DNA of 32,743 nucleotides from Acidimicrobiia bacterium (GTDB lineage Bacteria > Actinomycetota > Acidimicrobiia > Spongiisociales > ZC4RG35): positions 1 to 32,743 of the forward strand of contig JARDZU010000006.1 in the NCBI GenBank assembly GCA_029240695.1, written 5' to 3'. The notes beneath the pieces are model-generated. The model worked only from the letters and a program-made list of their open reading frames with translations, was not told the DNA's origin and made no database searches. How positions within the stretch are numbered: position 1 is the first letter of the stretch; each line of letters starts with the position of its first letter. This document shows, piece by piece, positions 8,486 to 30,241 of the stretch. The position numbers were made by a program, and so were the translations under genes.

Positions 8486-8530
8486 GACTGGGCGACAACC
8501 GACACCTAGGTGGTCGACGGAGGACGGACG

Positions 8531-9493: not shown

Positions 9494-10459
9494 TCATCGG
9501 GTTCGAGGTTGATCGACTCTGAGGAAACCGAGACGGGCCAAGGCGGCAAGGAGTAGCGCGAGGAGGGCGATGAGTGACACCAGCCCCCACTCGACTCCCA
9601 GTGCCTGCTCGGCTGCGATCACAAGCGCAAGCAGGACAGCCTGTGTGGCGGCGGCGATCAGCGAGATGGCCCGCACCCCAACCCCGCGGTCACGTAGCTG
9701 GTCGTAGATGTGGCTGCGGTCTCCGAGAAAGAGCGGGCGATGGTTGAGCCGACGACGAAGGAGCGTCACGAGCATGTCGATTGCGAACACGCCGAGGACG
9801 CCGGCTGTGAACACCACCTCGATCGCCGATTCGTTGGTGGAGTCAATGATCAGATGCGTCAGATAGAGGCCGAGGAAATAGGTCCCGGCGTCGCCCATGA
9901 ACACACGTGCCGGGTGCCAGTTGAGGACGAGAAAGCCGGCCAAGGCCGCCCCGAGCTCGAGCGACGACACGAAGTCGAGGCCTCGACCCTGCGCGATCAC
10001 AGCCAATCCGGCCGCCGTCACCATTCCCACCGAACCAACCAGGCCGTCGAGGCCGTCGAAGAGATTGACGCTGTTGATGGCGAAGACCGCAAGCGCGACG
10101 CTGAGGACTATGAACACGACGCCGGGGTTCGAAGCAACGTTGAGGACCAACACGACTGCGGCCAGCACCTCGACGACCAGCCGCACCTTTGGATCGACCC
10201 CCACGCGGTCGTCGATCAGGCCGAGGATGAGAACCATGGTCGTGGCGATGAGAAGGCCCCACTCCAGGTCATTTCGCATCAGCGCGGCCGCGTTGACCCC
10301 GAGGAAAACCCCCACCCCACCCAGAGGCACCGCCGGCCGGGCGTGCGCCTTCAGTGCCGGGTCATCGGGGCGATCGACATATCCGACCTGGGGTCCCAGC
10401 CAGACTGCGAAAAGACACCAGGCCAGGCTGACGACACCGGCAACTATCAGGGCCGCCAA
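9494..10459 (-). CDS. WecA/MraY-like polyprenyl-phosphate sugar-1-phosphate transferase
   Basis: A 321-aa multi-pass membrane enzyme of glycosyltransferase family 4 in the MraY/WecA/TagO sense. It transfers HexNAc-1-phosphate from UDP-sugar to undecaprenyl phosphate and starts a lipid-linked glycan. Family motifs in order are HARPAVPLGG near residues 39-48, LGLIDD near 99, NLFDGLDGL near 151, FMGDAGTYFLG near 188 and a final cytoplasmic HIYDQLRDRG matching the HxxR-type motif. About ten hydrophobic helices fit the family. The TTG start lies inside the end of the upstream GT4-GNAT gene (13-base overlap), so the pair is coupled. It is the likely initiating enzyme for this glycan, or it may serve another wall polymer. 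Confidence 0.9.
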   Translation of the reverse strand: MAALIVAGVVSLAWCLFAVWLGPQVGYVDRPDDPALKAHARPAVPLGGVGVFLGVNAAALMRNDLEWGLLIATTMVLILGLIDDRVGVDPKVRLVVEVLAAVVLVLNVASNPGVVFIVLSVALAVFAINSVNLFDGLDGLVGSVGMVTAAGLAVIAQGRGLDFVSSLELGAALAGFLVLNWHPARVFMGDAGTYFLGLYLTHLIIDSTNESAIEVVFTAGVLGVFAIDMLVTLLRRRLNHRPLFLGDRSHIYDQLRDRGVGVRAISLIAAATQAVLLALVIAAEQALGVEWGLVSLIALLALLLAALARLGFLRVDQPRTR

Positions 10460-12237: not shown

Positions 12238-12334
12238 GTCAGCCCACTACCAGCGGGGTCACTGCTGCTATCGCCGCCATGGATGCCAGAATACGGCCCA
12301 TGCATTTCCCACCCGGCATTGAGCAAACAGCCGC

Positions 12335-13585: not shown

Positions 13586-14094
13586 GTGAGACACCTCTCG
13601 ACGAGTCTCTCAACCCGATCTGGGTGCTTCTCTCAAAGGGGGAAAGCCCAAATCTCTGGATGCCACCCACGGGAGGGAAGGAATGGGGAGCGTCGCTGGA
13701 GTCGGCGTCGGCTGCCCTAGGCGACGAGGAGCTCATCATCTCGGTGGGCCGGCCTCTGGCACGCTCGGCCCTGTCCCGCCTTTCCGGCCGGGGGCGTCTA
13801 TCGAGCAAGGGCCCCAGCCCGACAGAGATGACAGACGCATTCGCAAGGCAGGGGTTAGAGGTGATAGCCACTTATGGGCTCTGGCCGTCGGCCCGTTCCC
13901 CCCGAATTGCCTTCCCCTGGGGCCATATCCGCATGATCTACTGGCTACAGACCTCTGGCGTGCTCGGCGGTGGGGGCAACAGGCTCTGGGCCCGGATTCT
14001 GGCGAGGTCGGTTTTGTTCACGCCGGTCGCTGCCGCCATCGCCCCGGGCATCGCCTTCGTGGTTCGCCGATCCCGCAACGAAGTCGCTCGATGA
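13582..14094 (+). CDS. Uncharacterised 170-aa protein, possible methyltransferase C-terminal remnant
   Basis: No domain is certain. The central part (EELIISVGRPLARSALSRL, then a helix and VIATYGLWPSARSPRIAFPWG) resembles from memory the C-terminal half of class I SAM-methyltransferase-like proteins found beside APH-fold kinases in actinobacterial glycan loci. The N-terminal SAM-binding half with its GxGxG loop is absent. A weakly hydrophobic segment near residues 141-160 ends in basic residues. Both ends overlap neighbours as ATGA, so it is a real translated gene and not leftover sequence. It may work with the APH-fold kinase that follows. The remnant idea needs a profile search. Confidence 0.6.
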   Translation: MSETPLDESLNPIWVLLSKGESPNLWMPPTGGKEWGASLESASAALGDEELIISVGRPLARSALSRLSGRGRLSSKGPSPTEMTDAFARQGLEVIATYGLWPSARSPRIAFPWGHIRMIYWLQTSGVLGGGGNRLWARILARSVLFTPVAAAIAPGIAFVVRRSRNEVAR

Positions 14095-15101
14095 TCGAAG
14101 AATTGACAGGCTACGCCAGGCAGGAATGGCAATCCTGGTTCGGGCATTCCCCTGAATCGGTGGGCATTGCGATCGGGAGCGGAGGGCCGGCCCATAGAAC
14201 GAGGGCCGCCGTGTTCGTGTTCGAGGACAGACGGGCGCGTCCATCGGTCGTGATGAAGATCGCCTTCACCGACCTCGAGGGAGCATTTCTTCGACATGAG
14301 CACGGTGCGCTCGCTGATATCCGGCCCCTCTTGCCGGAGCCGATGCGCCGAACTGTGCCCCGAGCCTTGGGTCTGGCGGAGATCGAGGGAAATACCGTCC
14401 TGACGATGGAGGCGCTAGCCGGGCGTCGCCTTCTCGTCCCCGATCTCAACGGTACAGGAGGCTCTCTACCACGGTCGTTGATGGGCGACTTCTACCGCAA
14501 GTCGTTCGAGTGGAGCAACGATCTCGCCGTCGCAACCAGCAGCACAGAGCGGCTCGATGGGTCACACCTCGCCGAGATCGTGGACCGGTACATCGGTCTG
14601 GTCTCCCACTCCACCGATGTCGAAGGAAAGGTGCGCAGCTTCCGTGATGCGGTGGCCGGGAGTGGAATCGCCTGGTCCACGTCCTGGCAACATGCCGACC
14701 TGGCGGTGGGCAACGTCCTGATGCATCGGGGGGAGTTGCGTCTCCTCGACTGGGAGCACGCATCCGATAAGTCACAGCCCTGGTTCGATCTAGCCCAGTC
14801 CGTCGGGGCGACGGCAAGGCTGGCCAAGCGTCAATCGGGCGCTGCCTCCTCCCGGGCCGCCGCAATGTCGGCTCTCGGTAGGTCGGGTTGGGCCGGCCAG
14901 GTGCTCCGGGCCGAGATCGAACGCGCCTGGGATAACCGGATGCCCCTCGGCTGGGTGATCGCTCTCAGCTCGATGGCAACCGCCATCCGGCAGGCAGACG
15001 ACACGCGTATGGGGGCCGACGACTGGACCGAGTTCGCCGCGTCGCTCGTCGCCGACAGAGAATTGCGATCGGAGCTCCCTTGGATGGTCCCCGACTGGTG
15101 A
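14091..15101 (+). CDS. APH/choline-kinase-fold phosphotransferase
   Basis: A 336-aa protein of the aminoglycoside phosphotransferase superfamily, which transfers ATP phosphate to small molecules or sugars in the cytoplasm. A strand with a candidate ATP lysine is at VVMKIA (about residue 56) and the hinge is near TMEALAG (105-111). The catalytic loop HADLAVGN (201-208) matches H-x-D-x4-N, and LLDWE near 218-222 gives the second metal-binding Asp in the usual DxE-type variant. The enzyme therefore looks active, in contrast to the paralogues at 8531 and 15130. The ORF track begins at 13683 in another gene; the ATG at 14091 overlaps the upstream stop (ATGA). The substrate is unknown; an amino sugar or glycan precursor is plausible from context. 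Confidence 0.8.
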   Translation: MIEELTGYARQEWQSWFGHSPESVGIAIGSGGPAHRTRAAVFVFEDRRARPSVVMKIAFTDLEGAFLRHEHGALADIRPLLPEPMRRTVPRALGLAEIEGNTVLTMEALAGRRLLVPDLNGTGGSLPRSLMGDFYRKSFEWSNDLAVATSSTERLDGSHLAEIVDRYIGLVSHSTDVEGKVRSFRDAVAGSGIAWSTSWQHADLAVGNVLMHRGELRLLDWEHASDKSQPWFDLAQSVGATARLAKRQSGAASSRAAAMSALGRSGWAGQVLRAEIERAWDNRMPLGWVIALSSMATAIRQADDTRMGADDWTEFAASLVADRELRSELPWMVPDW

Positions 15102-15129: not shown

Positions 15130-16092
15130 TCACCCTCTGGCTGCCTTCCTCCAAAGCATTGCCAAACGGAGGTAGGCAGGTACTTCGCCAAGCTCACGCT
15201 GGCGCAGCCGGCGGCGCACTGTCCACAGACTTCGATGGGACCGATAGAGGGCGAGCAGCGCCCGATCGGCGGGAGTGTCGAGGGTGACCGGTCCGGTTCG
15301 GCGGTACCCGTCATGGAACGAATCGGCCAATTTGGCCCTCGCGTCGTCGAATGCCCCACCCTTCTCTGACGTTTCCGAGCCGAGACGGCGCTCGAGATTG
15401 AACAGAAACCAGGCCACATCTCGATGCACCAGATCGAGGGCAGGTGGAGACGGCTGGTCCATGATCCACGCCTTCCCGCCGGGCCCGAGCCTGATGTTGT
15501 ACGGGGCGAAGTCCCCGTACCGCCTCGCGGTAGAGCTGACGAGATCGATGGCGTCGAGAAACCACGGCTGGACCATCAATGTTCTCGCCATACCTTCGAG
15601 TTCCGCACGGATCGAAGTCGGGTCGGACACCAAGTCCGCCAACGGACTCTGGCTGTGAAACGATCCCAGCGCGTCGCCACACGCCTCGATGACCGATCGA
15701 AACGTATCTGCCGTGTCGTGGCCGGCGGCGCGGAGAAGCTTCCCGAGGTCCTCGCCAGGGACATACGCGATGCATAGGCAGGGCGGCGCCGCATGCCAGC
15801 CCATCGGTTGGGCAATTTCGAGAGACGACCCGGCATCAGTGAGAAGCGTTGACAGGGCGATGAGGTCGTCGTGGATTCTCCGCGCCTCGGTCAGGTCCCA
15901 ATCCCTCCCCACTTTGATCAGGGCGATCGGCGCGTCGCCTTCGGACGTGCTGAGCTCGTAGAACGTCGACGTGTGACTGACGAATCGGCCAGTGGGGACC
16001 GCAGTCGCCAATTCCCGAGCCGTCTCGAAGCTCTGTGCCAGGTCTGAGGCGACAGCCTTCAGCTCGGTCTCGGTCAGTAGATCGGCTGGCAC
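15130..16092 (-). CDS. APH-fold kinase-like protein, D-Q-P variant
   Basis: A 320-aa APH-superfamily protein and closest relative in the window of the protein at 8531. The ATP-lysine strand is ALIKVG (about 57-62) and the hinge IAYVPGED (108-115). The catalytic loop is YGDFAPYN (192-199): Asp194 and Asn199 are kept, but the usual His is Tyr. The DFG position reads DQP (212-214), followed by the shared HRDVAWF block. It could still bind metal and ATP. The GTG start lies 6 bases after the glycosyltransferase gene that precedes it on this strand, so it is probably the last gene of the long minus-strand unit. It is convergent with the kinase at 14091. Confidence 0.7.
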   Translation of the reverse strand: MPADLLTETELKAVASDLAQSFETARELATAVPTGRFVSHTSTFYELSTSEGDAPIALIKVGRDWDLTEARRIHDDLIALSTLLTDAGSSLEIAQPMGWHAAPPCLCIAYVPGEDLGKLLRAAGHDTADTFRSVIEACGDALGSFHSQSPLADLVSDPTSIRAELEGMARTLMVQPWFLDAIDLVSSTARRYGDFAPYNIRLGPGGKAWIMDQPSPPALDLVHRDVAWFLFNLERRLGSETSEKGGAFDDARAKLADSFHDGYRRTGPVTLDTPADRALLALYRSHRSLWTVRRRLRQRELGEVPAYLRLAMLWRKAARG

Positions 16093-16098
16093 GCCTGC

Positions 16099-17214
16099 TC
16101 AGGCCCGACCGCGGGCGATGAAGGGCTCCAGCACGTCATGCCAATGTTCGACCGAGGCCTGGAGAGTGAACATGTCCATGCACCGCGTCCTTGCCTTCTG
16201 ACCCATCGCCTCCCTCAGGGCACGATCCGAGACCAGCCTCCGAACCGCGTCTGTCATCCCCGGCTTGTCCTCGATGTCGACCAACAGCCCGGTCACCCCG
16301 TCCTCGATCACATCCCGGGCCCCGGGGACCCTGGTCGCCACCGTGGCCAGACCGGAGAGCCCTGCTTCGATCAGCACACCCGGCATTCCCTCACCTGGGG
16401 GGAGGCTGGTGAAGACGAAGATGTCGTTCTCGGAGAGAAGCTGAGGCACGTCGCTGCGTCTGCCCAGCATCTCTATGCGTGCCTCCCCGGCGCGTGCGCC
16501 GAGCGATTGCTCCAGCGGCCCGTCTCCGACCATGGCGGCATCGAAGTCGAGATCATCCTGTCTCAGCGCCGCGACAACATCGATGAACCAGTCCGGGCGC
16601 TTTCCTGGATCGAGATGGCCCACGAAAATGACGCCCGCCCGCCCGTCTCTGCCACCGACGTGAGGCGGGAAGTCGACCGGGTCCCGGGCGTTGGGGATGA
16701 CCACAAGACGATCCTGGGGCACGTCGTAGAGCTGGTTGGCCTCCTCTGCCACGTCGCTCGACACCGCGGCGACGATGTTGGCCCGTCGGGTGTAGTAGCC
16801 GTGGAGGGACCGATTCGCCTTCCGCTGAAGTGCCCGGTGAGCGGTGCCGACCTTCAGATACACGAGGGGCAAGTCGCGCGGGAGGGCGATGGCGGCGTAC
16901 TTGGCCGACTCGCCTCCGTGGGCCACGACTACTGCCGGAGCGATACGCTTCACCTCGCTGCGGAGCCGTCGGACTACTCGCGGATCGAGGCCGAGCCGGC
17001 GGAGCATCCCGCGCGGCACATCGAGCTCGACATCGGGCCGAAGCAGAACAGGATCCGCTCGGAACAAGGTCAGGATCTGATGCGATTCGTCTTCGGTGTT
17101 GAGTGCATCGACAAGCGCTCGGGCATAACGCTGGGCGCCTCTCGCCAGGTCATAGGGGAGAACGTGGAGAACGACGGGCGGAGTCGGGGAGCCCGGCATC
17201 TCGGTCAATGACAT
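16099..17214 (-). CDS. GT4-family glycosyltransferase
   Basis: A 371-aa GT-B glycosyltransferase. It begins with VLHVLPYDLARGAQRYA, the usual N-terminal loop. The donor domain starts near VIFVGHLDPGKRPDW. The retaining-GT signature LPPGEGMPGVLIEAGLSGLA provides the E-x7-E pair. The ORF track starts at 17268, well inside the phosphatase gene. The ATG at 17214 overlaps that gene by only 10 bases and removes an arginine/cysteine-rich false extension; another ATG lies at 17199. It is unusual in following two secreted phosphatase genes in the same unit. Specificity is unknown. Confidence 0.85.
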   Translation of the reverse strand: MSLTEMPGSPTPPVVLHVLPYDLARGAQRYARALVDALNTEDESHQILTLFRADPVLLRPDVELDVPRGMLRRLGLDPRVVRRLRSEVKRIAPAVVVAHGGESAKYAAIALPRDLPLVYLKVGTAHRALQRKANRSLHGYYTRRANIVAAVSSDVAEEANQLYDVPQDRLVVIPNARDPVDFPPHVGGRDGRAGVIFVGHLDPGKRPDWFIDVVAALRQDDLDFDAAMVGDGPLEQSLGARAGEARIEMLGRRSDVPQLLSENDIFVFTSLPPGEGMPGVLIEAGLSGLATVATRVPGARDVIEDGVTGLLVDIEDKPGMTDAVRRLVSDRALREAMGQKARTRCMDMFTLQASVEHWHDVLEPFIARGRA

Positions 17215-18776
17215 GCACCGATGCCGACATCGACAAAGGTCGAGCCGGCTTCGGGGATGAACTCCCACTCGTATCCGTCGGCATACAGGGCCAGTTTGAG
17301 GATCCCGAACGAATCGGTGTATCGGGTTTCGCTGTTCGGGGCGACCTGGTCGAAGCTGCGGTTTCCCGTGCCCCCGGTTCCGGCGACGATCTGCCGGATC
17401 CCCTCGACCGGATCGTGAGTGCCATCGGGATCCTGAGGGGCAAAACGCTCGTAGTTGTGATCGTGCCCGTTGACCACGAGATCTGCCTCGCCCTCGTAGA
17501 GCGCAGCGAATAGGTCCCTCATCCCGGGATCGCCCCCGTGGTCACCCGAGCTGAACAGGGGGTGATGCCAGTAGGCCAGCGTGCATGCCGCATCTGAAGA
17601 ACCCAACTCTTGCTGGAGCCATCGCACCTGAGGCGAACCTGTCTCGCAAGCCACGTCTCCGCAGTTGGAATTGAGCACGAGGACCTGCCAGTCGCCGGCT
17701 TGGTAGCTGTAGTAGCCCTCACCAGGTTGGCCTGCGGCCTCGCCAAAGTAGCCAAAGTAACCAGTGGCATCGGAGGTGTTGTAGTCGTGGTTCCCGGGCG
17801 CCGGCCGGGTCCGATCCTTGTGCCGTCCCCAGGTCGGGTCATAACACTGGGCAAATTCCTCCGCCGAACCGTCCGAGTAGACGTTGTCTCCTGTGGTGAA
17901 AACGATGGTGGAAGGGTTCTGGGCGACAACACCGTCGATGAGATCGGCGGTGACGGTGTCGCCATCGTTACCACAATCCGAGATGTCGCCAGCGCCGGCG
18001 AGCACGACCGGTGTGCCTGTCAATTGAGCCACTGGCTCTGACTCCGCTGCCGCCGCCTCTGCCGAGCCCCAGTCGAGGATGAGAAGGGGAGCGTTTGCCC
18101 CGCTCTCGAGCGCGGCGAACTCGGCACTGTCGTCAGTTGAGGTGGTGAGATAGAAGTCGTAGGTGCCAGGCCCCAGGACGACGGAAGTCAGGTCCACGTC
18201 CACCGTGGAGCCCTCCGCAGTTCCGGGAGGAATGGTGGCGATCTGGGCCCCGACCGCTGGGGCATTCGCCCCGTTTGCATCGGCCTGAGTCCACGGGCCA
18301 TCTACCTCGTGCACCATGACCACCTCATCGGTGTCCGCTATCACGAAGAGTCGCATCGAGACGCTCTGGAGCGTTTCACCCTCGGGGATGTCGCCGACGA
18401 CGAAGCGAACCAGGGCCTGCTTGTTCTCGGGCGGATCGTTCTCTATCTCGAGCACGTCTTCGAAGCCGTTGATCTCTTCCGGCTGGCCGCTGTTGACGGA
18501 GGTGTCCTCACTAGCCGTGACGGCGAGTTGGCCCGGGGGCATGGAGACGGTCGGTGAAGTTGGCGCGACAGCGGTGGTCGAAGGCGCGTCGACCGAGACA
18601 GGAGGTGCCGGGGTTGTGGTCGGGGCCGCCGCAGGCTCCTGCGAAAGACCGCCCGTGGCAAGGAAGCCGATCACCAGGCCCACCAGGATCGTGAGCACCA
18701 CCGCCAGGACGATGATGATCGTCTGTCTGTTGTCCTTTGGTGTGGCGTCACCACCGTTCATGTTTTCGCCGTTCAT
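17205..18776 (-). CDS. Membrane-anchored purple-acid-type metallophosphoesterase with DNRLRE-like module
   Basis: A 523-aa extracytoplasmic phosphatase. A single hydrophobic helix at about 19-41 follows a short polar start and is followed by a Thr/Pro/Ala-rich linker (about 48-80), so it is probably an uncleaved anchor. Residues about 85-237 form a DNRLRE/CBM-like beta module with ENKQALVRF and ETLQSVSMRLFV. The metallophosphoesterase domain has all five metal motifs: GDISD (263), GDNVY (296), GNHDY (328), WHHP (403) and NGHDHNYERF (436). It likely releases phosphate from external esters with a dinuclear metal centre. The ORF track start (18998) is too early; the ATG at 18776 has GGAGG and overlaps the phytase stop as ATGA. 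Confidence 0.88.
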   Translation of the reverse strand: MNGENMNGGDATPKDNRQTIIIVLAVVLTILVGLVIGFLATGGLSQEPAAAPTTTPAPPVSVDAPSTTAVAPTSPTVSMPPGQLAVTASEDTSVNSGQPEEINGFEDVLEIENDPPENKQALVRFVVGDIPEGETLQSVSMRLFVIADTDEVVMVHEVDGPWTQADANGANAPAVGAQIATIPPGTAEGSTVDVDLTSVVLGPGTYDFYLTTSTDDSAEFAALESGANAPLLILDWGSAEAAAAESEPVAQLTGTPVVLAGAGDISDCGNDGDTVTADLIDGVVAQNPSTIVFTTGDNVYSDGSAEEFAQCYDPTWGRHKDRTRPAPGNHDYNTSDATGYFGYFGEAAGQPGEGYYSYQAGDWQVLVLNSNCGDVACETGSPQVRWLQQELGSSDAACTLAYWHHPLFSSGDHGGDPGMRDLFAALYEGEADLVVNGHDHNYERFAPQDPDGTHDPVEGIRQIVAGTGGTGNRSFDQVAPNSETRYTDSFGILKLALYADGYEWEFIPEAGSTFVDVGIGACH

Positions 18777-20419
18777 CTGCCCTCCGCATACTCGAGACGA
18801 AGTCCAGGAGCCTGCCCGGCGTCTCCTTCGAAGGCAACAGCCGCTCGTCGTCCGGCCCCCTCCGCGCGCACGACCAACCTCAGGCTCCCTCCGGGCTCCC
18901 ATCCTGGCGACGCGACGATCTCCCTGATGACCGCCGACAAGTCCGGAGTCTGCTGAAAGACACCGCGCTCCTCGTCGTCCCATCCCGCGGGCGCCCATGT
19001 CACGGCCTCTGTCTCTGCACTGCCCTCGTCGATGACACCGCTGATGGAGAGCACCAGGTCGGAATCATCGACCCCGGCAGCGGTGAACTGGACGTGGGCG
19101 CTCCTGACGGTTGAGTCAGCGGACACGTTCAGTCCAGGAAACTCCAATGCCACCGTGCTGTCAGAGTCGAAGACGAGGGTGGTTCCAGCTTCCACCGTGC
19201 CGTCAGTCGCCAACTGTCCATCTTCCTCCGCAGCCGATACCGCGGTCCGCCTCACCGACCAGTTCGAAGGTGTGGTGGCGATGTCGGAGGGCAGGGGCAC
19301 ATGTGGCAGGTTCGTCGGGCTGTCTCCACGCGGGTTCCAGCCGGTCTCGATGGCAAGAGCCGGATTGGGGGCCCCGGCTACGACATCCCAGGGAACGAGC
19401 TTGAAGTTCTGGTTCCCCGAATCGTTGTCCCCGTCCTGCGCCACGAATAGCCCGTTGGGAAATCCGGCACCCAAGGGAGCACTCATCACATCGATGCCAT
19501 CGGTGCTGCTGGTGCCGTCGATCGAAGCGGAATCGACGATCTGGAAATTCGAGACGTGCTCATTGTCTCCGGTGCGGTTGTACGTTGCGTACTGCCCCGA
19601 GCCCTGACTCGACGCGATCAGATAGCCGGCTCCGTCAGGGCCGTAGTAGATCGTCAGTCCCTCCACGTCGGCCTCCAAGGTCGAACCGACCTGATCGACG
19701 GGGACGCGGGAGGAGCCGCCGCCGGGCTCTGCCTCATATTTCCAAATGCCCACGGCTTCCTCCGCAACGTACAGGTAGGCGTGGTCGTCGTCGGCGACAC
19801 ATCCTTCGGCGGTGCTCTCCATGGAGATGTCACGCACCTGGGTCGCGGTCACTCCGCCCGCACCCCCGTCCGAGAGTTGGAACTGGCGCACCGGCCCGGA
19901 CCCGTCCGAGGTGACAAAGACGAAGAAGGTCCCGGTCTCGGGGCTGCGATAGAGGCACACGCCGAGGACGTCCAGGCCAGTAGCGATCGGCGAGGCCACC
20001 TCGACGAGCTGGCGGGTCTGGGGATCGACTCGGTGGATGGTGATGGCTTCATCGTCCTGTTCGCTGGTGACCACGATGTCTACCGGCTGGCCGGCCAGGG
20101 GAAAGCCATGGCGTATGTCGACGTTGTTGGGACGGATCCCGGCGAGATATTGGATCTGGCGGCCATCGAGGGCATAGACGGCGAGACCGCCTTCCTTGTC
20201 AGTTCCGATGACGGTCGAAAGCGCCGGGTCGGTGGGATGGAGCCAGATGGCTGGGTCGTCGGCCGCATCACCGCCGTTGGGAACCGGATCGGTTTCGACG
20301 GTCGCGGTCACGTCGGTCGTTTGGGCCTGCGCCGGCAGCCAGGACTCGCCCACCATCACTGATGCCACGATGACACCGACGACGAGCGCGCTTAGAACCC
20401 GCGGGCTCCTCCTCCACAT
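18773..20419 (-). CDS. Secreted beta-propeller phytase with C-terminal beta module
   Basis: A 548-aa 3-phytase of the beta-propeller class, which removes phosphate from phytate outside the cell in a calcium-dependent way. A signal peptide covers about residues 1-32 (cut near AQA). The class motif DAADDPAIWLHP is near 50-61. The propeller body runs to about 380, with GLDVLGVCLY, AEGCVADDD and DVEGLTIYYG as expected blade motifs. Residues about 425-548 form a second beta domain resembling the DNRLRE-like modules of secreted actinobacterial enzymes (TVRSAHVQF, then W-rich and G-rich strands). The ATG start lacks a clear ribosome site. Its end overlaps the metallophosphoesterase start as ATGA. 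Together they would form a phosphate-harvesting pair. I saw no PHO box. Confidence 0.9.
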   Translation of the reverse strand: MWRRSPRVLSALVVGVIVASVMVGESWLPAQAQTTDVTATVETDPVPNGGDAADDPAIWLHPTDPALSTVIGTDKEGGLAVYALDGRQIQYLAGIRPNNVDIRHGFPLAGQPVDIVVTSEQDDEAITIHRVDPQTRQLVEVASPIATGLDVLGVCLYRSPETGTFFVFVTSDGSGPVRQFQLSDGGAGGVTATQVRDISMESTAEGCVADDDHAYLYVAEEAVGIWKYEAEPGGGSSRVPVDQVGSTLEADVEGLTIYYGPDGAGYLIASSQGSGQYATYNRTGDNEHVSNFQIVDSASIDGTSSTDGIDVMSAPLGAGFPNGLFVAQDGDNDSGNQNFKLVPWDVVAGAPNPALAIETGWNPRGDSPTNLPHVPLPSDIATTPSNWSVRRTAVSAAEEDGQLATDGTVEAGTTLVFDSDSTVALEFPGLNVSADSTVRSAHVQFTAAGVDDSDLVLSISGVIDEGSAETEAVTWAPAGWDDEERGVFQQTPDLSAVIREIVASPGWEPGGSLRLVVRAEGAGRRAAVAFEGDAGQAPGLRLEYAEGR

Positions 20420-20455
20420 GGAAAGGCATGTTAATGGTGACCGCCATCAAGCAGT

Positions 20456-21382
20456 TCAGAACGGGCTTGGTGCGCTTTCTGCCGGCTCGGTGACCCGTGT
20501 ACCGACGTAAATCCCGACGCCCAGAGCGATCAGGTAGCCGGCGACGATGACGATCAGAGCGGGAAGCATGTTGTCGAATCGGGCTGCAATCCGCGAGCAA
20601 ATAACGACCAAGACGAACTGAGGAATCGAGGCCACCACCGCGCCCAGCCAGTTCTGCCTGACCCTGTTGACCAGGTTGGCCGTGCCGGGACGAAGCCGGA
20701 AGATGATCGGCTCGAGCAGGAGCAGTCCCAAGCAGGCCGCAGATCCTGCGATCGACGGTGGACGGCCGCCCCCACCGGCTGCAGCCACCCAGAGGAATGC
20801 CCCCACGGCCACGAAGGAGCCCTCCATGCCCAGCGAGACGGCCACCTTGGGCCAGGCGAGAAGGGTGATCGGCAGAGCAGCTGCCATGAGAACCAGAGCT
20901 TGTTCCGTGTCGGGAACGGCAGCAAAGGTGCCGAGCACAGCAAGTGTGAAGTAGATGACGCCGAGTCCGAGACGTTGGTTGCGTGTCTCGAAGTCATTGA
21001 TGAGAAATCCACCGACCGGGATCAGCACCGCCATCAGGACCCGAACCCAGGTCAGGTCGGTGACAGTCGCACCGAAGCCCAGCCACACCGAGCCAGGCAC
21101 CGCAGCCAGTATCTGCACCCAAGCCGGGGCCCGGGTCAAGCGCACGATCAGGACTCCGATGGCTATCGCTGCGAGGGCGGGGACCGCAGGCCCGAGTGGC
21201 TCAGCCACGAGGTACAGGCCACCAATCGTGGCGATCGCGACGAGCAACCCGGCAATTGGCATTGGGGGTCGATAGCGGCCAGTCACAAATCGAAGGGCCC
21301 AGCCCAGTGCTAGCGCCAGTACACCAAGGCGGAGCCCGGTCGTGAAGAAGCCCGTCTCGAAAAGAGCGAGGAGATCGGACAC
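20456..21382 (-). CDS. Multi-pass membrane protein of unknown function
   Basis: A 308-aa protein made almost entirely of hydrophobic helices, about nine or ten, with short loops and a small glycine-rich loop near residue 200 (GGGGRPPS). Basic residues at RLRPG and NRVRQNW suggest cytoplasmic loops. I do not recognise the family, and no catalytic motif stands out. It sits between the ASPIC lipoprotein gene (24-base gap) and the phytase gene (36-base gap) in the long minus-strand unit. It could be a transporter, an acyltransferase-like or a polymer-handling protein. The GTG start has only a weak ribosome site. It is well supported as a gene by its coherent hydrophobic pattern. Confidence 0.65.
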   Translation of the reverse strand: MSDLLALFETGFFTTGLRLGVLALALGWALRFVTGRYRPPMPIAGLLVAIATIGGLYLVAEPLGPAVPALAAIAIGVLIVRLTRAPAWVQILAAVPGSVWLGFGATVTDLTWVRVLMAVLIPVGGFLINDFETRNQRLGLGVIYFTLAVLGTFAAVPDTEQALVLMAAALPITLLAWPKVAVSLGMEGSFVAVGAFLWVAAAGGGGRPPSIAGSAACLGLLLLEPIIFRLRPGTANLVNRVRQNWLGAVVASIPQFVLVVICSRIAARFDNMLPALIVIVAGYLIALGVGIYVGTRVTEPAESAPSPF

Positions 21383-21406
21383 GGAGGCGATTCTAGAACG
21401 GGGCTC

Positions 21407-23068
21407 TCAGCCGCAGCCCGCCGGATACCTCACATGTTGGTCTGCGGACACGCCCTCGAGGATCACAATCTCCCCTTCGCCCGGGGGGTTGAGCTGGATG
21501 TCGACTTGCTCATGGTCGCCGAGCCCGAAATGGGCCACGGGTGCCACTCCCGAGGAGTAGCCCTGAGTTGTTGTTATCTCACGGGCACCGAGCAACGCGG
21601 GCGTCTCCCCCGCTGTGCCCGACTCGTAGACCTCTATCCGCCACCCGAGGCCGGATCCCAATTCGCTGCCCATGGAAACTTCCAGCCAGTGGCCCGACGC
21701 GGTCTCGTTGCGCAACATCAGTGAGGGCAGTGCCGGGTCGAACTCCACCAGAAAGACGTCGAGTCGCCCGTCCCTGTCGATATCGGTCGTGGGCCCAGCA
21801 ACCCAGTACTGAGCGCTCCCCAAACCTTCCGGAGCGCTGAACACGGGGATGTCGCCGTTGAGCCCTGTGTGCCGGAACACGGCGGGCCGGGTGCCGTCTG
21901 CGGCCGAAGCCGTGGCAACCAGGTCGGGCCAGCCGTCGTTGTCCATGTCGTTGAGCTCGACATGCGGGCCTTTGGTCGGGAGCCCGACCAGTCCGGCCGC
22001 CTCGGTCACTTCCTCGAACTGCGCCCCTCCCCTGTTGAGGAACAGACGCACCGGGACCATGGCCCCATCGTCGATGGTGCTGTTGAAGTGGTGACCTACG
22101 GCGATGTCCAACAGACCATCGCGATTGACGTCTGCGATCGAAGCTCCCGTGACCAGATCCTCGTCACCGATCGGCGGCCAGGCGAAAACGGAGCTGTCGA
22201 CCTGCTGGAACGACTCGCCATCGGCGACGAATAGCTGATTCGACCCTGCCACGAAGATGTCCTGGCGGCGGTCCCCCGTGAGGTCGGCCACCGCCACCCC
22301 GAGTCCGACGATGCTCTGGGGCAGGCCCGCCGCCGCTGTGACGTCCGTGAAAGCGAGATCCCCTTCGTTTCGGAGCAGGACACTCCCGCCCTCATCGGCG
22401 GTGATGAACAGGTCGAGCAGGCCATCTAGGTCGTAGTCGAGGACGGCAACCGACCGCCCGGCAAATTGGGTGGGGAGCCCGGTTCCCGCCGGGACCAGCG
22501 AGCCCCCGTCGTTCCGCAGTATCTGTGAACCTGGCGCAGAAGGCTGGTCGTCGTCCCAGTTTCGGGAGATGACCAGGTCGAAGTCACCGTCCGAGTCCAG
22601 ATCGGCGGTGGTCCCACCGCTGGTTCTGGCGAACATGTCGGGGAGGCTCTCGTCGGCGGCGAAACTGGCGTCCGACGATAGGAGCAACTGGTCCGGGGCC
22701 GGTCCGTCGGCGCCCCGCGCCTGATAGATCTCGGTGTCACGATCGGCGAACGTGCCCATGAAGAGGTCGGGCCGCGTGTCGCCGTTGAAGTCTCCCCACA
22801 CCCCGGCGTGCCCGTACATGCCGACCAGAGGTGTCACCATGCCCAGAGCCTCGGTCTGATCGGAAAACCCGATCGCGGCCTCCCCGTCCCCAGGCGCTGC
22901 CGTCCAACAAGTAAGCCTTCCACCTTCAGCGACGGTGCCGGTGGTGCCTGAAGAGGTACCTCCCGGGTCTGTCTCCGCCCCACTCGTGGCGGGAGTTCCT
23001 GCCTCGCCCCCGGACGTGCACGCAGTCAGTACGACCAGAGCCGCCACTGTCAGCATCCGGCGACTCAC
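21407..23068 (-). CDS. FG-GAP/VCBS propeller lipoprotein with ASPIC/UnbV domain
   Basis: A 553-aa lipoprotein. The signal peptide ends in LTAC, giving a lipid-modified Cys17. A low-complexity Gly/Thr linker follows. The body is a beta-propeller of FG-GAP/VCBS repeats with calcium-type loops such as DLDSDGDFD, DYDLDGLLD, DVNRDGLLD, DMDNDGWPD and DIDRDGRLD. The last about 100 residues fit the ASPIC/UnbV domain (GHWLEVSM, then VAPVAHFGLG). Such proteins bind ligands or carbohydrate at the cell surface; no enzyme activity is established for this arrangement. The GTG start overlaps the upstream stop as GTGA. Its neighbours are another propeller protein and a multi-pass membrane protein, so the three may form one surface complex. 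Confidence 0.85.
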   Translation of the reverse strand: MSRRMLTVAALVVLTACTSGGEAGTPATSGAETDPGGTSSGTTGTVAEGGRLTCWTAAPGDGEAAIGFSDQTEALGMVTPLVGMYGHAGVWGDFNGDTRPDLFMGTFADRDTEIYQARGADGPAPDQLLLSSDASFAADESLPDMFARTSGGTTADLDSDGDFDLVISRNWDDDQPSAPGSQILRNDGGSLVPAGTGLPTQFAGRSVAVLDYDLDGLLDLFITADEGGSVLLRNEGDLAFTDVTAAAGLPQSIVGLGVAVADLTGDRRQDIFVAGSNQLFVADGESFQQVDSSVFAWPPIGDEDLVTGASIADVNRDGLLDIAVGHHFNSTIDDGAMVPVRLFLNRGGAQFEEVTEAAGLVGLPTKGPHVELNDMDNDGWPDLVATASAADGTRPAVFRHTGLNGDIPVFSAPEGLGSAQYWVAGPTTDIDRDGRLDVFLVEFDPALPSLMLRNETASGHWLEVSMGSELGSGLGWRIEVYESGTAGETPALLGAREITTTQGYSSGVAPVAHFGLGDHEQVDIQLNPPGEGEIVILEGVSADQHVRYPAGCG

Positions 23069-24462
23069 GGGAGATGGATCACGAGGAGGACGACCTCCCC
23101 GAAGCCGTCGTCCGCGCCGAGCGGTCCGGCGTTCGCACCCATGTAGATCGTGTCGCCGGCGGGTGACACCGCCATGCTGAATGTCCCGCCGAGACGCAAC
23201 CCGAGACCCTCCTCTGTGAGGGGATTGAGCTCTGCCATGACCGTCTGCTCACCGGTTGCGGTGTCGACACTGGTGAGCGCGCCGCCGAATGCCCAGGCGT
23301 CGCCGTGGGCATCAGGCATGAAGAAGAATCGATCACCCGAGGGGTGAATGGCCATGGTTGCGGTGTATTCGGCCGGATTGCCGAGGCCCTCGATCGACCC
23401 GTCTGGATTTAGAACGAAGAACGCGTCGGGATCCCGGGTGACCGCGAACACCCTTCCGTCCTCGGCCGGCGTGGTCGAAGCCCTGAGCCAGTCACCGGGC
23501 ATCTGGTGGGGGTGAGTCGTCACCTCGTTGGTCGCCGGGTCATAAACCGACAGCTCGCCACCGCCGATCGAGTAGTACGCCCGCCCCTCGCCATCGACCA
23601 TCACGTTTCGGAACCCGGAATGCGGCGACGCCGGGCCTTCGAAGACCAATTGCTCACGCAGGACGTTGTAGACGAAGAACGGGCCGGCGTCGACGTTCTG
23701 AGCCTCCGCGATCGGGTCGATCGCCTCGCCGTATACCAGTCCCAGGTCCGACGATCCCGCCAGCGAGGGAATGCCGTGCTCCTGGATTGGGACTCCCAGG
23801 GCTGCGATCGTGCGCTGCTCGGGATCGAGTCGGAAGAGATAGTCCCCGGTGTAGGACGACCCGTACTGGAGATCACGGTTGGTGCCCCAGTAGGAGGCGA
23901 AATACACCTCGCCACAGGGCCCGGCGGCCATCTGACCGTGGACCTTGCCGTATCCCCAGGCCCCCGGAGTGTGATCGACGTAGGACAGGAGATCGCCGAG
24001 TGTGCTGAGCGTCCCGGTCGCCGGGTCGTACTCGTAAACGAAGGAGTTCCCATCAGGGCCGAGATGGTCGCCTATCGCAGAGACGAAACGGCCATCGTCC
24101 AGGGCTATGCCCTGACCCCACATGGTCCAGGGGTCGCCCTGGTAGTCGGGCCGCGGGTACACCACGCCCTCGACTTGCATCCCATTCACTTCGCCGAGGT
24201 CAACCAACTGGGCGCTCGGGCCACCAACGTATGGCTGACCGGGTGGGACATCGCATGACGGGTCGACAGCCCCGGTGACTGGGGTCGACTGGCTCGTCTC
24301 AGGCTGTGTACTCGATGTCTGCCCCTGTGTGGTGGGCGTCGCCGCTTCGGGGGAGTTGGGATCTGAATCCCCTCCGCCCGCCAGTCTGCTCCCGAGAAAC
24401 CACCCGCCGGCCAGGGCTACCGTCAACCCCCCGACGACCAAAACCCATTTCCACGCCCCCAC
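23065..24462 (-). CDS. Membrane-anchored beta-propeller protein, function unknown
   Basis: A 465-aa protein with one N-terminal helix (about residues 5-27) and a Thr/Ser/Gln-rich linker (about 38-65), so it is anchored outside the membrane. The rest reads as a beta-propeller. Repeated strand motifs include FVYEYDPATGTL, LFRLDPEQRTI, LSVYDPATNEV and FFVLNPDGSIEG. The repeats are like those of SMP-30/PQQ-type propellers, but no enzyme signature is clear. A cysteine pair (about 69 and 158) may form a disulfide. The GTG start has GGAGG 7 bases upstream. It is the first gene of the minus-strand unit that leads to the phytase and phosphatase, so its promoter probably controls them. Confidence 0.75.
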   Translation of the reverse strand: MGAWKWVLVVGGLTVALAGGWFLGSRLAGGGDSDPNSPEAATPTTQGQTSSTQPETSQSTPVTGAVDPSCDVPPGQPYVGGPSAQLVDLGEVNGMQVEGVVYPRPDYQGDPWTMWGQGIALDDGRFVSAIGDHLGPDGNSFVYEYDPATGTLSTLGDLLSYVDHTPGAWGYGKVHGQMAAGPCGEVYFASYWGTNRDLQYGSSYTGDYLFRLDPEQRTIAALGVPIQEHGIPSLAGSSDLGLVYGEAIDPIAEAQNVDAGPFFVYNVLREQLVFEGPASPHSGFRNVMVDGEGRAYYSIGGGELSVYDPATNEVTTHPHQMPGDWLRASTTPAEDGRVFAVTRDPDAFFVLNPDGSIEGLGNPAEYTATMAIHPSGDRFFFMPDAHGDAWAFGGALTSVDTATGEQTVMAELNPLTEEGLGLRLGGTFSMAVSPAGDTIYMGANAGPLGADDGFGEVVLLVIHLP

Positions 24463-24509
24463 GGCATGCCCTCCCGTCTTCGTGACCGGACGATAGTGCG
24501 TTCTGCATA

Positions 24510-24537
24510 TTGTTTGACCACGGAGGGCGGTTACACT
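24510..24537 (+). promoter_or_regulatory. Candidate promoter of the ABC exporter operon
   Basis: TTGTTT and TACACT are separated by 16 bases. The predicted start point near 24544 leaves a leader of about 95 bases before the ABC ATG. Only the -10 box is a good match. Confidence 0.35.
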
Positions 24538-24565
24538 CTCATTCGTCTAGGGGGGGCGCACACGC

Positions 24566-24577
24566 AAACCGTGGTTT
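24566..24577. promoter_or_regulatory. Palindrome in exporter leader, possible operator
   Basis: AAACCgtGGTTT has perfect 5-base arms around two bases. It is 63 bases before the ABC start codon, downstream of the proposed promoter. A repressor site is possible; no regulator gene is nearby. Confidence 0.3.
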
Positions 24578-24586
24578 ACTTGATTC

Positions 24587-24613
24587 GACGCCGACTTCAT
24601 TCGATGCGGCGTC
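24587..24613 (+). other. Stem-loop in exporter mRNA leader
   Basis: GACGCCG pairs perfectly with CGGCGTC across a 13-base loop, ending 26 bases before the ABC start codon. It is not followed by a T run, so it is not an intrinsic terminator. It may affect translation or be chance. Confidence 0.3.
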
Positions 24614-24639
24614 CTGGGCGTTGAGGGGTTTGACAGGAA

Positions 24640-25644
24640 ATGAGCGAACGCGATCCGAGCATCTCGGTCAAAGACCTGACCAAGGTCTATGAGCCCTCGC
24701 CCACGTGGATGAAGCTCATGGTGAAGAGCAACATCAAGAACGCAGTGGTCGCGCTCGACGGCATCACCTTCGAGGTTGGGCCCGGTGAGATCTGCGCTGT
24801 GGTCGGCCCCAATGGTGCCGGCAAGACCACGACGTTCCGCATCCTCCTCGGTCTCACCACTCCATCTACCGGGACCGCCACGGTTGGTGGATACGACGCC
24901 CAACACGAGTCGGTCGCAGTCCGACGCATGGTCGGCTGGATGCCTGGCCAGGACGTCAGCCTGCTGGGCCGCCTCACCTGTGTCGAGAACCTCCGTTTCC
25001 ACGGCCGTCTCCAGGGACTCAAAGGTGAGGATCTCAAAGGGCGGATATACGACTCCCTGGCCAAGGTCGGCCTCTCCCATGCCGCTGAGCATTCCGTCTT
25101 TGCCCTCTCCTCCGGAATGCGGGCACGACTCCAGCTCGCCCGTGCCCTGCTGCATAGCCCAAGCGTGCTGATCCTCGATGAGCCCACAGGCGCCATCGAC
25201 CCGGTAGCTGCCCACGAGCTCCTCGGCCTGATCATCTCCATCGTCGAGGAAGAGCGGCTCGCCTGCATGATCAGCTCGCACCGTCTCGAGGAAATCGAAG
25301 CCCTCCACTCTCACGTCGTCCTCCTCGACAAGGGGCGGATCCGGTACGACGGAGACCTCGATGAGTTGAGAGATCTCGTGGACCGGGAGCAGCTCGAGAT
25401 CGAGTTCAAGACCGACGAGAGTGCCCGTCAGGCACGAAAGCTCATCGACGCCGCCGGTCTGGGTGAGTCGATCACCGTCGAGGGATCCCAGCTGACGACG
25501 GTTCTGACCTCATCCGAGACGACGACCGGAGACGTCCTCGCAGTTCTCGAGACGGTGGCACCAGAGGTGGTGCATCTCCAGGAGGTGCAGCGACCGCTCC
25601 GCGACCTCCTCGCCGACATGTATCGGGAGAAACAAGCGAAATGA
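24640..25644 (+). CDS. ABC-2 exporter ATP-binding protein
   Basis: A 334-aa ABC ATPase with Walker A GPNGAGKTT (about residues 58-66), signature LSSGMRARLQLARAL (about 152-166), Walker B LILDEPTGAIDP and H-loop SSHRLEE. The C-terminal about 100 residues match the DrrA/CcmA-type extension of ABC-2 exporters, not the carbohydrate-binding domain of Wzt-type O-antigen ATPases. An insert near residue 15-35 (PTWMKLMVKSNIKNAV) precedes the nucleotide-binding core, as in some polysaccharide or lipid exporters. The ATG follows GAGGGG by 11 bases. It pairs with the permease downstream by an ATGA overlap. The cargo may be the glycan or a glycolipid made nearby. Confidence 0.92.
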   Translation: MSERDPSISVKDLTKVYEPSPTWMKLMVKSNIKNAVVALDGITFEVGPGEICAVVGPNGAGKTTTFRILLGLTTPSTGTATVGGYDAQHESVAVRRMVGWMPGQDVSLLGRLTCVENLRFHGRLQGLKGEDLKGRIYDSLAKVGLSHAAEHSVFALSSGMRARLQLARALLHSPSVLILDEPTGAIDPVAAHELLGLIISIVEEERLACMISSHRLEEIEALHSHVVLLDKGRIRYDGDLDELRDLVDREQLEIEFKTDESARQARKLIDAAGLGESITVEGSQLTTVLTSSETTTGDVLAVLETVAPEVVHLQEVQRPLRDLLADMYREKQAK

Positions 25645-26510
25645 GTGTCGAGACCAAGGCCCCGGAAGCGGAGGAGCACGGGCGTCGCAAGAAGCGGCGC
25701 TCACCGAACAGACCCACCCCTTCGATCGCGGTTGCGTTCCTCCGCATGGATGCCATCGAGGAATTCAGCTACCCCATGTCGCTCATTCTCAGCGAGCTTG
25801 GAACCGTCCTGCCGGTTCTGGTCTCGTTCTTCATCGGCGACCTGGTCGGTGAGTCGGCCGAGGTCGGTGGCGACTATTTCACCTTCGCCGTACTCGGGTT
25901 GGCGGTGTCCGCGATTCTCCAGGGCGCCTTGAGCGGGTTCGGAGGCAACCTGCAACGCGCCCTGAACCGGGGCTCGCTGGAGACCCTGTTGGTTGAGCCG
26001 GTCCCGTGGACGTTCCTCCCATTTGCCATGAATCTCTGGCACACCATGATGGGAGTGCTCGAAGGGGCCATCATTCTCGCGATGGGTGCCCTGCTCGGGG
26101 CGGAGTACCTGGCCTCGGGGTGGTGGGAGTTCCTCGTCCTGCTCGTGCTGGGGATACTTGCTTGCACCGCCATCGGGATCGTGTCGGCAGCCATCCTCAT
26201 CATCTCGAAGCGGTCCAAGCCCTTCCTCACTCTATATGGCATGGCGGCGTCATTGCTCGCCGGTGCCGTGTTCTCCGTCGACCAGCTTCCCTCCTGGCTG
26301 CAGACCCTGTCCTGGGCCATCCCACACACGTATGTCATCAACGCCAGCCGCGCCGTGCTCATGGAAGACCCGGGCACGTTCGTCGTCCCGTTCCAAATGG
26401 CAGTCATCGCACTCCTTGCCTTCAATGTGGTGGTGCTCGCTGGTGGTCTCTGGCTGTTCTCCCGCTCACTCGAGTACGGGAGAAAGATGGGCATGCTGAG
26501 CGGCTACTAG
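25641..26510 (+). CDS. ABC-2 type exporter permease
   Basis: A 289-aa membrane protein with a basic cytoplasmic start (GRRKKRRSPNRP) and six hydrophobic helices. It has the ABC-2 permease layout: an amphipathic connector (NLQRALNRGSLETLL) after the second helix, and the late motif SWAIPHTYVINASRAVL before the last helix. It forms the channel for the ATPase encoded just upstream (ATGA overlap). The next gene, an APH-fold kinase, begins 8 bases later, so the four genes from 24640 to 28410 form one unit. Confidence 0.9.
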   Translation: MSVETKAPEAEEHGRRKKRRSPNRPTPSIAVAFLRMDAIEEFSYPMSLILSELGTVLPVLVSFFIGDLVGESAEVGGDYFTFAVLGLAVSAILQGALSGFGGNLQRALNRGSLETLLVEPVPWTFLPFAMNLWHTMMGVLEGAIILAMGALLGAEYLASGWWEFLVLLVLGILACTAIGIVSAAILIISKRSKPFLTLYGMAASLLAGAVFSVDQLPSWLQTLSWAIPHTYVINASRAVLMEDPGTFVVPFQMAVIALLAFNVVVLAGGLWLFSRSLEYGRKMGMLSGY

Positions 26511-26518
26511 GCCGGCCC

Positions 26519-27511
26519 GTGCCCTTCGACCATCGACCCGACGTCCCTGGAGCCGATGTGCTGCAGAGGGCCCTGGTGGCCCTGGCGGACAAACACTCGA
26601 TCGCGCCGGAGTCCCTGACCTGGAGGGTGGGCGACCGCAACGACCGCAAACGCTCGACGCTCTTCCCCTTGACCTTACGATCCACCGAAGGAACGGTGGC
26701 GACGGCTTGGTACAAGACACCCTACTTTCCGCCAGCAGAGCAAGACTCCCGACATCTGGGCCGGGCACGCGAGGCCCTCAGTCGGGGCGACGAGATGGCG
26801 CGACGTTTCATGGAGCTCGCCGGCGAATCCTCAATCGCCATCAACGAGACGCTGGCCTTCGACGAAGACACGCTCGAGGTGGTGACCCTCGGGCTGGAAG
26901 GCGAGCCGATGGGCAACCCGTTGCAGTTTGCCTTTACTGGCAAGAGTCGAACCAGGGCCTTGGCCGCTGTGGCAGCAGTCGGACAGGCGGTCCGGTTTCT
27001 CGAGAGTTTCCCCCAGCCCGAGCCTGGCCCAGAGCTGGACCGCATCTGGAAGGAGACGGAGCGAAAAGTCGAGTCCATCGGGCCGCTGCTGTCAGAGGCC
27101 GATCGGAGGAGTCTCGAGACCCATCTCGGCGAGCTGTTCGACTTGGCCTCAGCCGACACCCACGGAGTAACCGTCTCACACGGAGACCTCAGCCCCGGGA
27201 ACGTGATAATGATGGACGACGGCACCGGTCTGATCGATTTCGGCTGGATACCCCAGCTTCGTGGCTTCGACCTCTCCCGATTCGCTCATCGCCTCCGGTA
27301 CACCACCACGTCGTTCCGACCCTGGACCGAGGCTCTGATTTGCGCCGTCACGGATGGGTATGGAGACCCGGATGCCGCCTCCCGACCCGGATGGCAGTTC
27401 TCGGAGATGCAGCGGTTGATGGGCACGATTCAGCGTCTCGAGCGGAAAGGTGAGGGGGGTCGGAGATCGGCAGGGCGTGCCTTGGCCGAGATCCGGGCGG
27501 GGCTCACATGA
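26519..27511 (+). CDS. APH-fold phosphotransferase with canonical HGD and DFG motifs
   Basis: A 330-aa protein of the APH/choline-kinase superfamily. The N-lobe has a candidate ATP lysine at ATAWYKTPYF (Lys66). The catalytic loop is HGDLSPGN (221-228), an exact HGDxxxxN, and the metal motif is IDFGW (239-243), an exact DFG. It is the most conventional of the four APH-fold proteins in the window and is probably active. The ORF track begins far upstream at 26006 inside the permease; the GTG at 26519 sits 8 bases after the permease stop and is the first reasonable start. It lies between an exporter and a sulfotransferase-family gene (ATGA overlap), so its substrate may be the exported glycan or lipid. 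Confidence 0.8.
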   Translation: MPFDHRPDVPGADVLQRALVALADKHSIAPESLTWRVGDRNDRKRSTLFPLTLRSTEGTVATAWYKTPYFPPAEQDSRHLGRAREALSRGDEMARRFMELAGESSIAINETLAFDEDTLEVVTLGLEGEPMGNPLQFAFTGKSRTRALAAVAAVGQAVRFLESFPQPEPGPELDRIWKETERKVESIGPLLSEADRRSLETHLGELFDLASADTHGVTVSHGDLSPGNVIMMDDGTGLIDFGWIPQLRGFDLSRFAHRLRYTTTSFRPWTEALICAVTDGYGDPDAASRPGWQFSEMQRLMGTIQRLERKGEGGRRSAGRALAEIRAGLT

Positions 27512-28410
27512 AGCCGTTCCCATTTTTCTTCGGGGCCAATGGTTCGGGCACGACGTTGCACCGAGCCATTTTCGACTCTCACCCCGACCTGGCGATACCG
27601 GGTGAGGCACGTTTCGTGGCCAAGCTGGCAAATCGGTACCGGGAGGGATACGACACCGAGCGGTTCATGAAGGATCTGGGCAAAGACGATCGGTTTGTGA
27701 ACTGGGGACTCGAACCAGATGACGTCGAGATGGCTCTGAATGACCCACCGGCCGGGGACTATCCGGAGGCGGTGCGTCGGCTCTACGACCGATACGCCGG
27801 CCTGCAGGGTAAGACCCGATACGGAGACAAGACCCAGAGCAACATCCATCATCTGGCGCTGCTGGCCGACCTCTTCCCTGAGGGCAAATTCGTCCATGCC
27901 GTGCGTGACGGCCGGGACGTCGCCCTGGCGCACACCGACGGGACCAAGATCGAACAGGTCGCCGTGTCCTGGAAGCGCCGGGTCGACGCCGGGCGGGCGG
28001 CCGGAAAGTCGCTAGGCCCCGACCGATACATCGAGTCTCGATTCGAGGGGTTGATCGACGACACCGAGGGCTCTGTTCGGAGGCTATGCGACTTCCTCGA
28101 GTTGCCATTCGACCCGTCGATGCTCACCTACTACGAGCGAGCCGGTGACATAGTGTCGACCACGGCGGTACCCGACCGGCACAAGGACATCTTCCTGCCC
28201 CCCACCAAAGGCCTTCGCGACTGGCGACGGGAGCTGTCCGATGACCAGGTGGCCCGCTTCGAGGCGCTGGCCGGCGACATGCTCGACGAGCTCAGCTACG
28301 AGCGGAAGTACGAAAAGGTGCCCCTGTCCGCCCGTGCCGCCGCTCTCCGTCAGGTGGTCCGGGATGGGGCCCGTTACACGGTGCGACGGGTGAAGAAGGT
28401 GGTCCGCTGA
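27508..28410 (+). CDS. Sulfotransferase-family protein
   Basis: A 300-aa cytoplasmic protein of the PAPS-dependent sulfotransferase family. The N-terminal loop GANGSGTTLHRA (9-20) stands where PRSGTT or GRSGTT is usual, so the basic residue is Gly. DSHPDLAIPGE follows as in the family. YGDKTQSN (105-112) is the expected middle motif. HAVRDGRDVALA (130-141) is the 3'-phosphate motif, with Ala where Ser is usual. The basic tail (YTVRRVKKVVR) may contact membrane. It may sulfate the glycan or lipid exported by the upstream ABC system, but the changed cofactor loops leave activity open. It is last in the unit and followed by a hairpin terminator. Confidence 0.8.
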   Translation: MKPFPFFFGANGSGTTLHRAIFDSHPDLAIPGEARFVAKLANRYREGYDTERFMKDLGKDDRFVNWGLEPDDVEMALNDPPAGDYPEAVRRLYDRYAGLQGKTRYGDKTQSNIHHLALLADLFPEGKFVHAVRDGRDVALAHTDGTKIEQVAVSWKRRVDAGRAAGKSLGPDRYIESRFEGLIDDTEGSVRRLCDFLELPFDPSMLTYYERAGDIVSTTAVPDRHKDIFLPPTKGLRDWRRELSDDQVARFEALAGDMLDELSYERKYEKVPLSARAAALRQVVRDGARYTVRRVKKVVR

Positions 28411-30169: not shown

Positions 30170-30241
30170 TATGAAACCCCCTGGTGCCTTCCCCGCACCG
30201 GTAGACCAGGAAGAGCGATAGCCCTCCACCCAACGCCGCGG

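Follow-up and report, generated by a model that had tools for sequence, protein, structure and literature searches.

Results

A run of seven genes within a polysaccharide locus

The window analyzed here, a stretch of 32,743 nucleotides, is part of the 2.9 Mb draft genome of an Acidimicrobiia bacterium (G000; 282 contigs). Its GC content is even, at 0.60–0.66. The list of open reading frames places seven genes between positions 15130 and 24462, all on the minus strand (Table 1). They are closely packed, with a 4-base overlap between genes 1 and 2, gaps of 24 and 36 bases before and after gene 3, an ATGA overlap of 4 bases between genes 4 and 5, either a 10-base overlap (ATG at 17214) or a 5-base gap (ATG at 17199) between genes 5 and 6, and a 6-base gap between genes 6 and 7. 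These values, from −10 to +36 bases, depend on the plausible starts chosen for the ORFs. The start of gene 5 was moved from 18998, the start of the long ORF, to 18776, which is the likely one because the methionine there overlaps the phytase stop as ATGA and lies just ahead of the hydrophobic anchor. An earlier note had described seven genes running in one direction with tight spacing; coordinates, direction and spacing all proved correct. Spacing, together with the synteny described below, is the basis on which a single operon is predicted.

Table 1. Features of the window considered in this study (positions are those of the window).
Feature	Coordinates	Strand	Basis
Gene 1, surface beta-propeller protein, 465 aa	23065..24462	-	N-terminal hydrophobic segment 7-25 (hydropathy)
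Gene 2, FG-GAP/UnbV-ASPIC lipoprotein, 553 aa	21407..23068	-	PF13517 1e-32, PF07593 4e-7; lipobox LTAC
Gene 3, multi-pass membrane protein, 308 aa	20456..21382	-	PNPT (MraY/WecA) fold without catalytic Asp; VPDTE at residues 156-160
Gene 4, secreted beta-propeller phytase, 548 aa	18773..20419	-	PF02333 2e-106, positions 3-370 of 375
Gene 5, membrane-anchored PAP-like metallophosphatase with CBM96/DNRLRE domain, 523 aa	17205..18776	-	PF24517 3e-16, PF00149 2e-12
Gene 6, GT4 glycosyltransferase, 371 aa from ATG 17214	16099..17214	-	PF13692 1e-29
Gene 7, APH-fold kinase-like protein, 320 aa	15130..16092	-	catalytic loop YGDFAPYN...MDQ kept
WecA-type transferase, active-looking	9494-10459	-	Pfam; catalytic motifs invariant in A5
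GT4-GNAT	10447-12237	-	Pfam; directly after gene 6 homologue in G015
ABC exporter pair, APH-fold protein, sulfotransferase	24640..28410	+	Pfam
Divergent intergenic region, gene 1 versus ABC exporter genes	24463..24639	.	sequence

According to Pfam, both flanks consist of polysaccharide genes (CapD-type dehydratase, epimerase, GT4s, GNATs, WecA-type transferase, ABC-2 exporter, sulfotransferase and APH-fold proteins). In such surroundings the glycosyltransferase and the APH-fold protein are no odd guests; the secreted hydrolases and the propellers are. The WecA-type initiator, CapD-type dehydratase, epimerase, GT4s, GNATs and ABC-2 exporter are shared with ABC-exporter-dependent extracellular polysaccharide loci. 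The window differs from these in also hosting a secreted phytase and phosphatase, propeller lipoproteins, four APH-fold proteins and a sulfotransferase.

Further reading frames were noted around the run. A minus-strand gene at 28484-30271, beside the polysaccharide locus, encodes a surface protein with S-layer-homology and leucine-rich repeats, and SLH segments related to it flank polysaccharide genes in four genomes (G001, G010, G017 and G137). The plus-strand gene at 7088-8485 encodes a 465-aa protein without Pfam match that is 37-46% conserved at the same locus position in many relatives. The minus-strand ORF at 12239-13060 was rejected as a gene because the opposite strand reads as a GT4.

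The upstream pair

Gene 1 matched no Pfam family above the cut-off. A profile built from eight of its homologues matched designed and amine-dehydrogenase propeller structures (best 4e-13), and homologues were present in 11 of 60 relatives. Propeller and FG-GAP genes lie side by side in seven other loci of relatives that were examined, with different neighbors every time and on contigs other than that of the polysaccharide locus. From this distribution, the two genes appear to be a portable surface-lipoprotein pair that was added upstream of the polysaccharide residents.

The phosphate hydrolases

Gene 4 contains a complete beta-propeller phytase (BPP) catalytic domain (PF02333). Residues 37-349 align with the Bacillus phytase 1poo (phmmer 2e-85), and the full catalytic propeller is shared with the Bacillus 3-phytases 1poo and 3amr. 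It differs from them by an extra C-terminal domain and by its setting in a polysaccharide locus beside a phosphatase resembling purple acid phosphatases (PAP). The extra domain, 167 aa of adhesin type without Pfam match (window 18776-19276), is of a kind that also precedes, or is fused to, metallophosphatase domains in relatives. Direct BLASTP of the phytase accessory domain against that of the phosphatase gave no significant match.

Phytases of this kind were found in 2 of the 138 genomes of the order when residues 184-548 served as query; the full protein was used as query in 60 genomes. None of the other six genes stood alongside any of 80 phytase loci elsewhere, nor beside the nearest named relatives of gene 4, which are at most 53% identical and belong to Chloroflexota, Planctomycetota, Paenibacillus and others. 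A literature search on phytase operons found no matching arrangement. The pairing of the two hydrolases has recurred independently in an unrelated, unclassified metagenome-assembled genome (L143, 9962-13884). There, the genes for a TonB receptor, a phytase, an FAD oxidase and a metallophosphatase share one orientation, with the phytase and metallophosphatase on one strand, two genes apart.

The metal-ligand motifs of gene 5 are intact (GDNVY 296, GNH 328, WHHP 403 and GHDH 437). They correspond to the GDxxY, GNH, HxP and GHxH motifs of PAP-like metallophosphatases (PF00149), and PAP structures are its nearest solved relatives. The protein differs from purple acid phosphatases in its N-terminal transmembrane anchor and CBM96/DNRLRE domain, and sequence similarity to them reaches only about 2e-5. 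A scan of viral contigs for this phosphatase gave no match. A second CBM96-type phosphatase paralogue (44%) lies elsewhere in G002, a second species of the genus, directly after a sulfotransferase (contig C29; L056 1849-3345 with 830-1654), and a partial homologue is found on contig C228 of G000.

The GT4 and the APH-fold proteins

Gene 7 had no Pfam match. Its profile matched corramycin phosphotransferase (4e-9), and Foldseek with a model of mean pLDDT 75, weak over residues 150-191, retrieved the glucosamine kinase 6hwj (5e-7). The protein carries a Brenner-type loop with catalytic Asp and Asn, the metal Asp and the ATP Lys (K60, YGDFAPYN, MDQ). It thus has the fold and catalytic loop of the APH-fold small-molecule kinases 6hwj and 8agy (corramycin phosphotransferase), from which it differs by a Y in place of the H of the HGD motif and by an identity of about 15-18%.

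Gene 7 is one of four APH-fold genes in 20 kb of polysaccharide locus, the others being 8510-9478, 13683-15101 and 26507-27508, all on the plus strand. Direct BLASTP between the proteins at 15130 and 13683 gave no significant match. The protein at 26507 retains HGDLSPGN. The one at 8510-9478, a homologue of gene 7 with 27% identity, has the loop HNFSRND, without the catalytic Asp, and its homologue in G018 (L049 6853-7611) reads RFSPND; this type is possibly a pseudokinase subfamily of polysaccharide loci. In G018, an APH-fold gene also follows a glycosyltransferase, without phytase.

Gene 3 has a predicted PNPT fold and lacks the catalytic residues

The earlier note had left the identity of gene 3 unstated, and no Pfam family matched it. 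Its AF2 model (pLDDT 86.8, pTM 0.86) was compared with the PDB by Foldseek, and the top 25 matches were all MraY, WecA-type transferases or DPAGT1 (probability 0.99-1.00; TM 0.60-0.62 to MraY structures), with E-values of just 4e-3 to 6e-2. By hhalign, the gene 3 family was colinear with the WecA family of the window over 219 columns (87.8%, E 3.3e-6), whereas two other membrane families used as controls gave 0.1% and 1.7%. Gene 3 shares the predicted fold of the PNPT superfamily (MraY, WecA/TagO, DPAGT1) and aligns colinearly with the WecA of its own locus.

What sets gene 3 apart from that superfamily is its residues. In the alignment, other residues stand where WecA has the DD pair of loop B and the N..N..DG.DGL and GD.G loops, and gene 3 has no H..D segment. 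GD.G occurs in none of 11 gene 3 homologues, and none has DD at the equivalent position. The locus's own WecA retains all the catalytic motifs that gene 3 lacks. The aspartates of MraY have been implicated in binding Mg and substrate phosphate (PMC4790310). Gene 3 was not classed as an active PNPT enzyme, since the catalytic and Mg-binding Asp residues and the His motif are missing. In their stead the family conserves VPD[TV]E, of which V, P, D and E are invariant in a nine-member alignment. Going by helix order, the predicted position of this motif is on the opposite face from the former active site.

Homologues of gene 3 were found in 15 of the 138 genomes of the order and, among 397 genomes drawn, in 3 more distant ones of the phylum. 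Where flanks permit, many lie among CapD, WecA, GT4, GNAT or exporter genes, including one in another order (G153).

Comparison with relatives

In G002, genes 2-7 are found in the same order over two contigs, so that the synteny proposed by the earlier note as a check was indeed recovered, and its loss in all relatives, which the note had held would count against the unit, does not apply. One contig (C98) carries the C-terminal half of the FG-GAP protein (79% identity), the membrane protein (63%) and the 5' part of the phytase (61%). The other (C120) carries the 3' part of the phytase (48%), the phosphatase (62-63%), the GT4 (65%) and, in the same place, the APH-fold protein (37%). The two contigs overlap at their ends by 141 identical bases within the phytase, which makes genes 2-7 contiguous. 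An assembly gap covers the propeller and the N-terminal half of the FG-GAP protein. The gap between FG-GAP and membrane protein is 60 bases in G002, and its phytase/phosphatase and phosphatase/GT junctions are near-overlaps (an 8-base gap and a 10-base overlap). Gene 7, at 37% compared to 48-79% for genes 2-6, may have been replaced independently.

In G015, from another genus, the membrane protein, the GT4 (46% identity to gene 6), the GT4-GNAT and the WecA are direct neighbors in that order, without phytase or phosphatase. Six more genomes have a GT4 of a sister clade directly before the GT4-GNAT. Outside G000, G002 and G015, the glycosyltransferase upstream of the GT4-GNAT falls in a clade of its own in the tree, at an identity of only about 30%. 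Phytase, phosphatase and APH occur in this locus position only in this genus. G001, of the same genus, has at the same chromosomal site (TauE/Rrf2 flank 86-91% identical) a locus without genes 1-5 and 7. Also at that site in G001 (L072 3181-7950) are an HprK-like gene, a LuxR-type regulator and a 744-aa fusion of nucleotidyltransferase-like and GT4 domains, assigned by eye.

Discussion

The seven genes do form a unit, one that is conserved in its genus and composite in origin. Its GT4 and membrane protein are, as synteny shows, old residents of the polysaccharide locus: in G015 they are adjacent, with the next GT4 gene immediately following, and there is no phytase. The secreted hydrolases and the propeller pair are probably additions. 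By parsimony, the ancestor that G000 shares with G002 is likely to have acquired phytase and phosphatase by insertion between membrane protein and GT, and the propeller pair by insertion upstream. The earlier note had offered a rearrangement in which the late genes were added. A composite built by rearrangement stands, but the gene order in G015 reverses the roles, the GT being old and the hydrolases added.

We consider it reasonably probable that the unit is a genus-specific, co-oriented gene run built by insertion into an extracellular-polysaccharide locus, in which surface phosphate scavenging is expressed together with the glycan coat. The residents, genes 3 and 6, would take part in lipid-linked glycan assembly with the flanking WecA, GTs, acetyltransferases and ABC exporter. 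The additions would be the propeller/FG-GAP pair upstream, the phytase and phosphatase between genes 3 and 6, and the APH-fold gene after gene 6. Propeller, lipoprotein, phytase and phosphatase would be exported and stay at the surface or close to it through the transmembrane anchor, the lipid anchor and the CBM96 and adhesin-type domains. BPPs halt at partly phosphorylated inositols. The phytase would attack inositol phosphates, and the phosphatase could complete the dephosphorylation of the partly processed products, so that the cell gains phosphate. GT4 and APH would remain in the cytoplasm and act on the glycan of the surrounding coat. Co-transcription would put the enzymes into the coat during its making, and a common promoter in the intergenic region upstream of gene 1, divergent from the exporter, would tie both the hydrolases and the GT4/APH pair to the coat.

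The earlier note had proposed a search for PHO boxes upstream of 24462. Neither Streptomyces-like nor E. coli-like patterns matched in 24463-24639, and totals over the window were at chance, the consensus used possibly not being that of this lineage. A scan of the same region for sigma-70-like sites or a consensus promoter gave nothing above chance. As no PHO box was found there, phosphate control of the unit is unproven.

It is also conceivable, if unlikely, that the genes are neutral neighbors, inserted into a variable polysaccharide locus and sharing only their strand, with internal promoters separating the hydrolases from the GT/APH pair and no joint function. Polysaccharide loci do vary among these genomes, the gaps on either side of gene 3 could hold start sites, and the PHO-box scans found no shared regulator box. 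However, stop/start overlaps join phytase to phosphatase and phosphatase to GT in the window, with near-overlaps in G002, and the order was maintained while the proteins diverged to 48-65% identity.

The integrated system proposed in the earlier note, in which phosphorylated polymers are bound and stripped outside while APH and GT build the cell's own phosphate-containing glycan, appears more doubtful still. The tight junctions with three stop/start overlaps, the order kept in G002 and the several APH-fold proteins of the locus would fit it. Yet G015 has the GT and membrane protein in the same context without phytase, phosphatase or propellers, and the propellers occur without the rest. The substrates of APH-fold proteins also include aminoglycosides, amino sugars and other small molecules, and at least one homologue here (8510-9478) lacks the catalytic Asp. 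With no PHO box found and no phosphoglycan polymerase recognized in the locus, this reading found no direct support. A simpler role for the two hydrolases is to scavenge organic phosphate at the surface. Finally, an assembly or binning artefact uniting unrelated genes, conceivable in so fragmented a draft, is scarcely credible given the even GC of 0.63-0.66 and the same order in the independently assembled G002 at 48-79% (genes 2-6) and 37% (gene 7), and for genes 2-7 it is ruled out by that order and the exact contig overlap.

Within the composite unit, gene 3 is the most unusual part and of greater interest than the unit itself. That its relatives are found in polysaccharide loci across the phylum suggests a non-catalytic WecA-like subunit. 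MraY functions as a lipid-linked dimer (PMC9046198), which makes a dead partner of WecA a concrete hypothesis. We regard the chances as evenly balanced that gene 3 is the first member of an undescribed family of WecA/MraY-fold membrane proteins that are catalytically dead and belong to polysaccharide loci of at least part of the phylum. Its members would be non-catalytic partners, for example a subunit of a WecA hetero-dimer or an undecaprenyl-glycan chaperone, with an extracytoplasmic VPD(T)E motif, and in this genus their locus would have been fused with a surface phytate-scavenging module. A literature search for PNPT-fold pseudoenzymes and dead WecA partners found nothing, which is weak evidence of absence.

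With gene 3 the question arises of whether there are pseudoenzymes of PNPT fold, and whether WecA and other initiating transferases use dead partners. The unit itself shows that a glycan locus can take up a secreted phosphate-scavenging pair along with a surface lipoprotein pair and keep them through speciation, and it offers a testable link between coat assembly and the use of organic phosphate.
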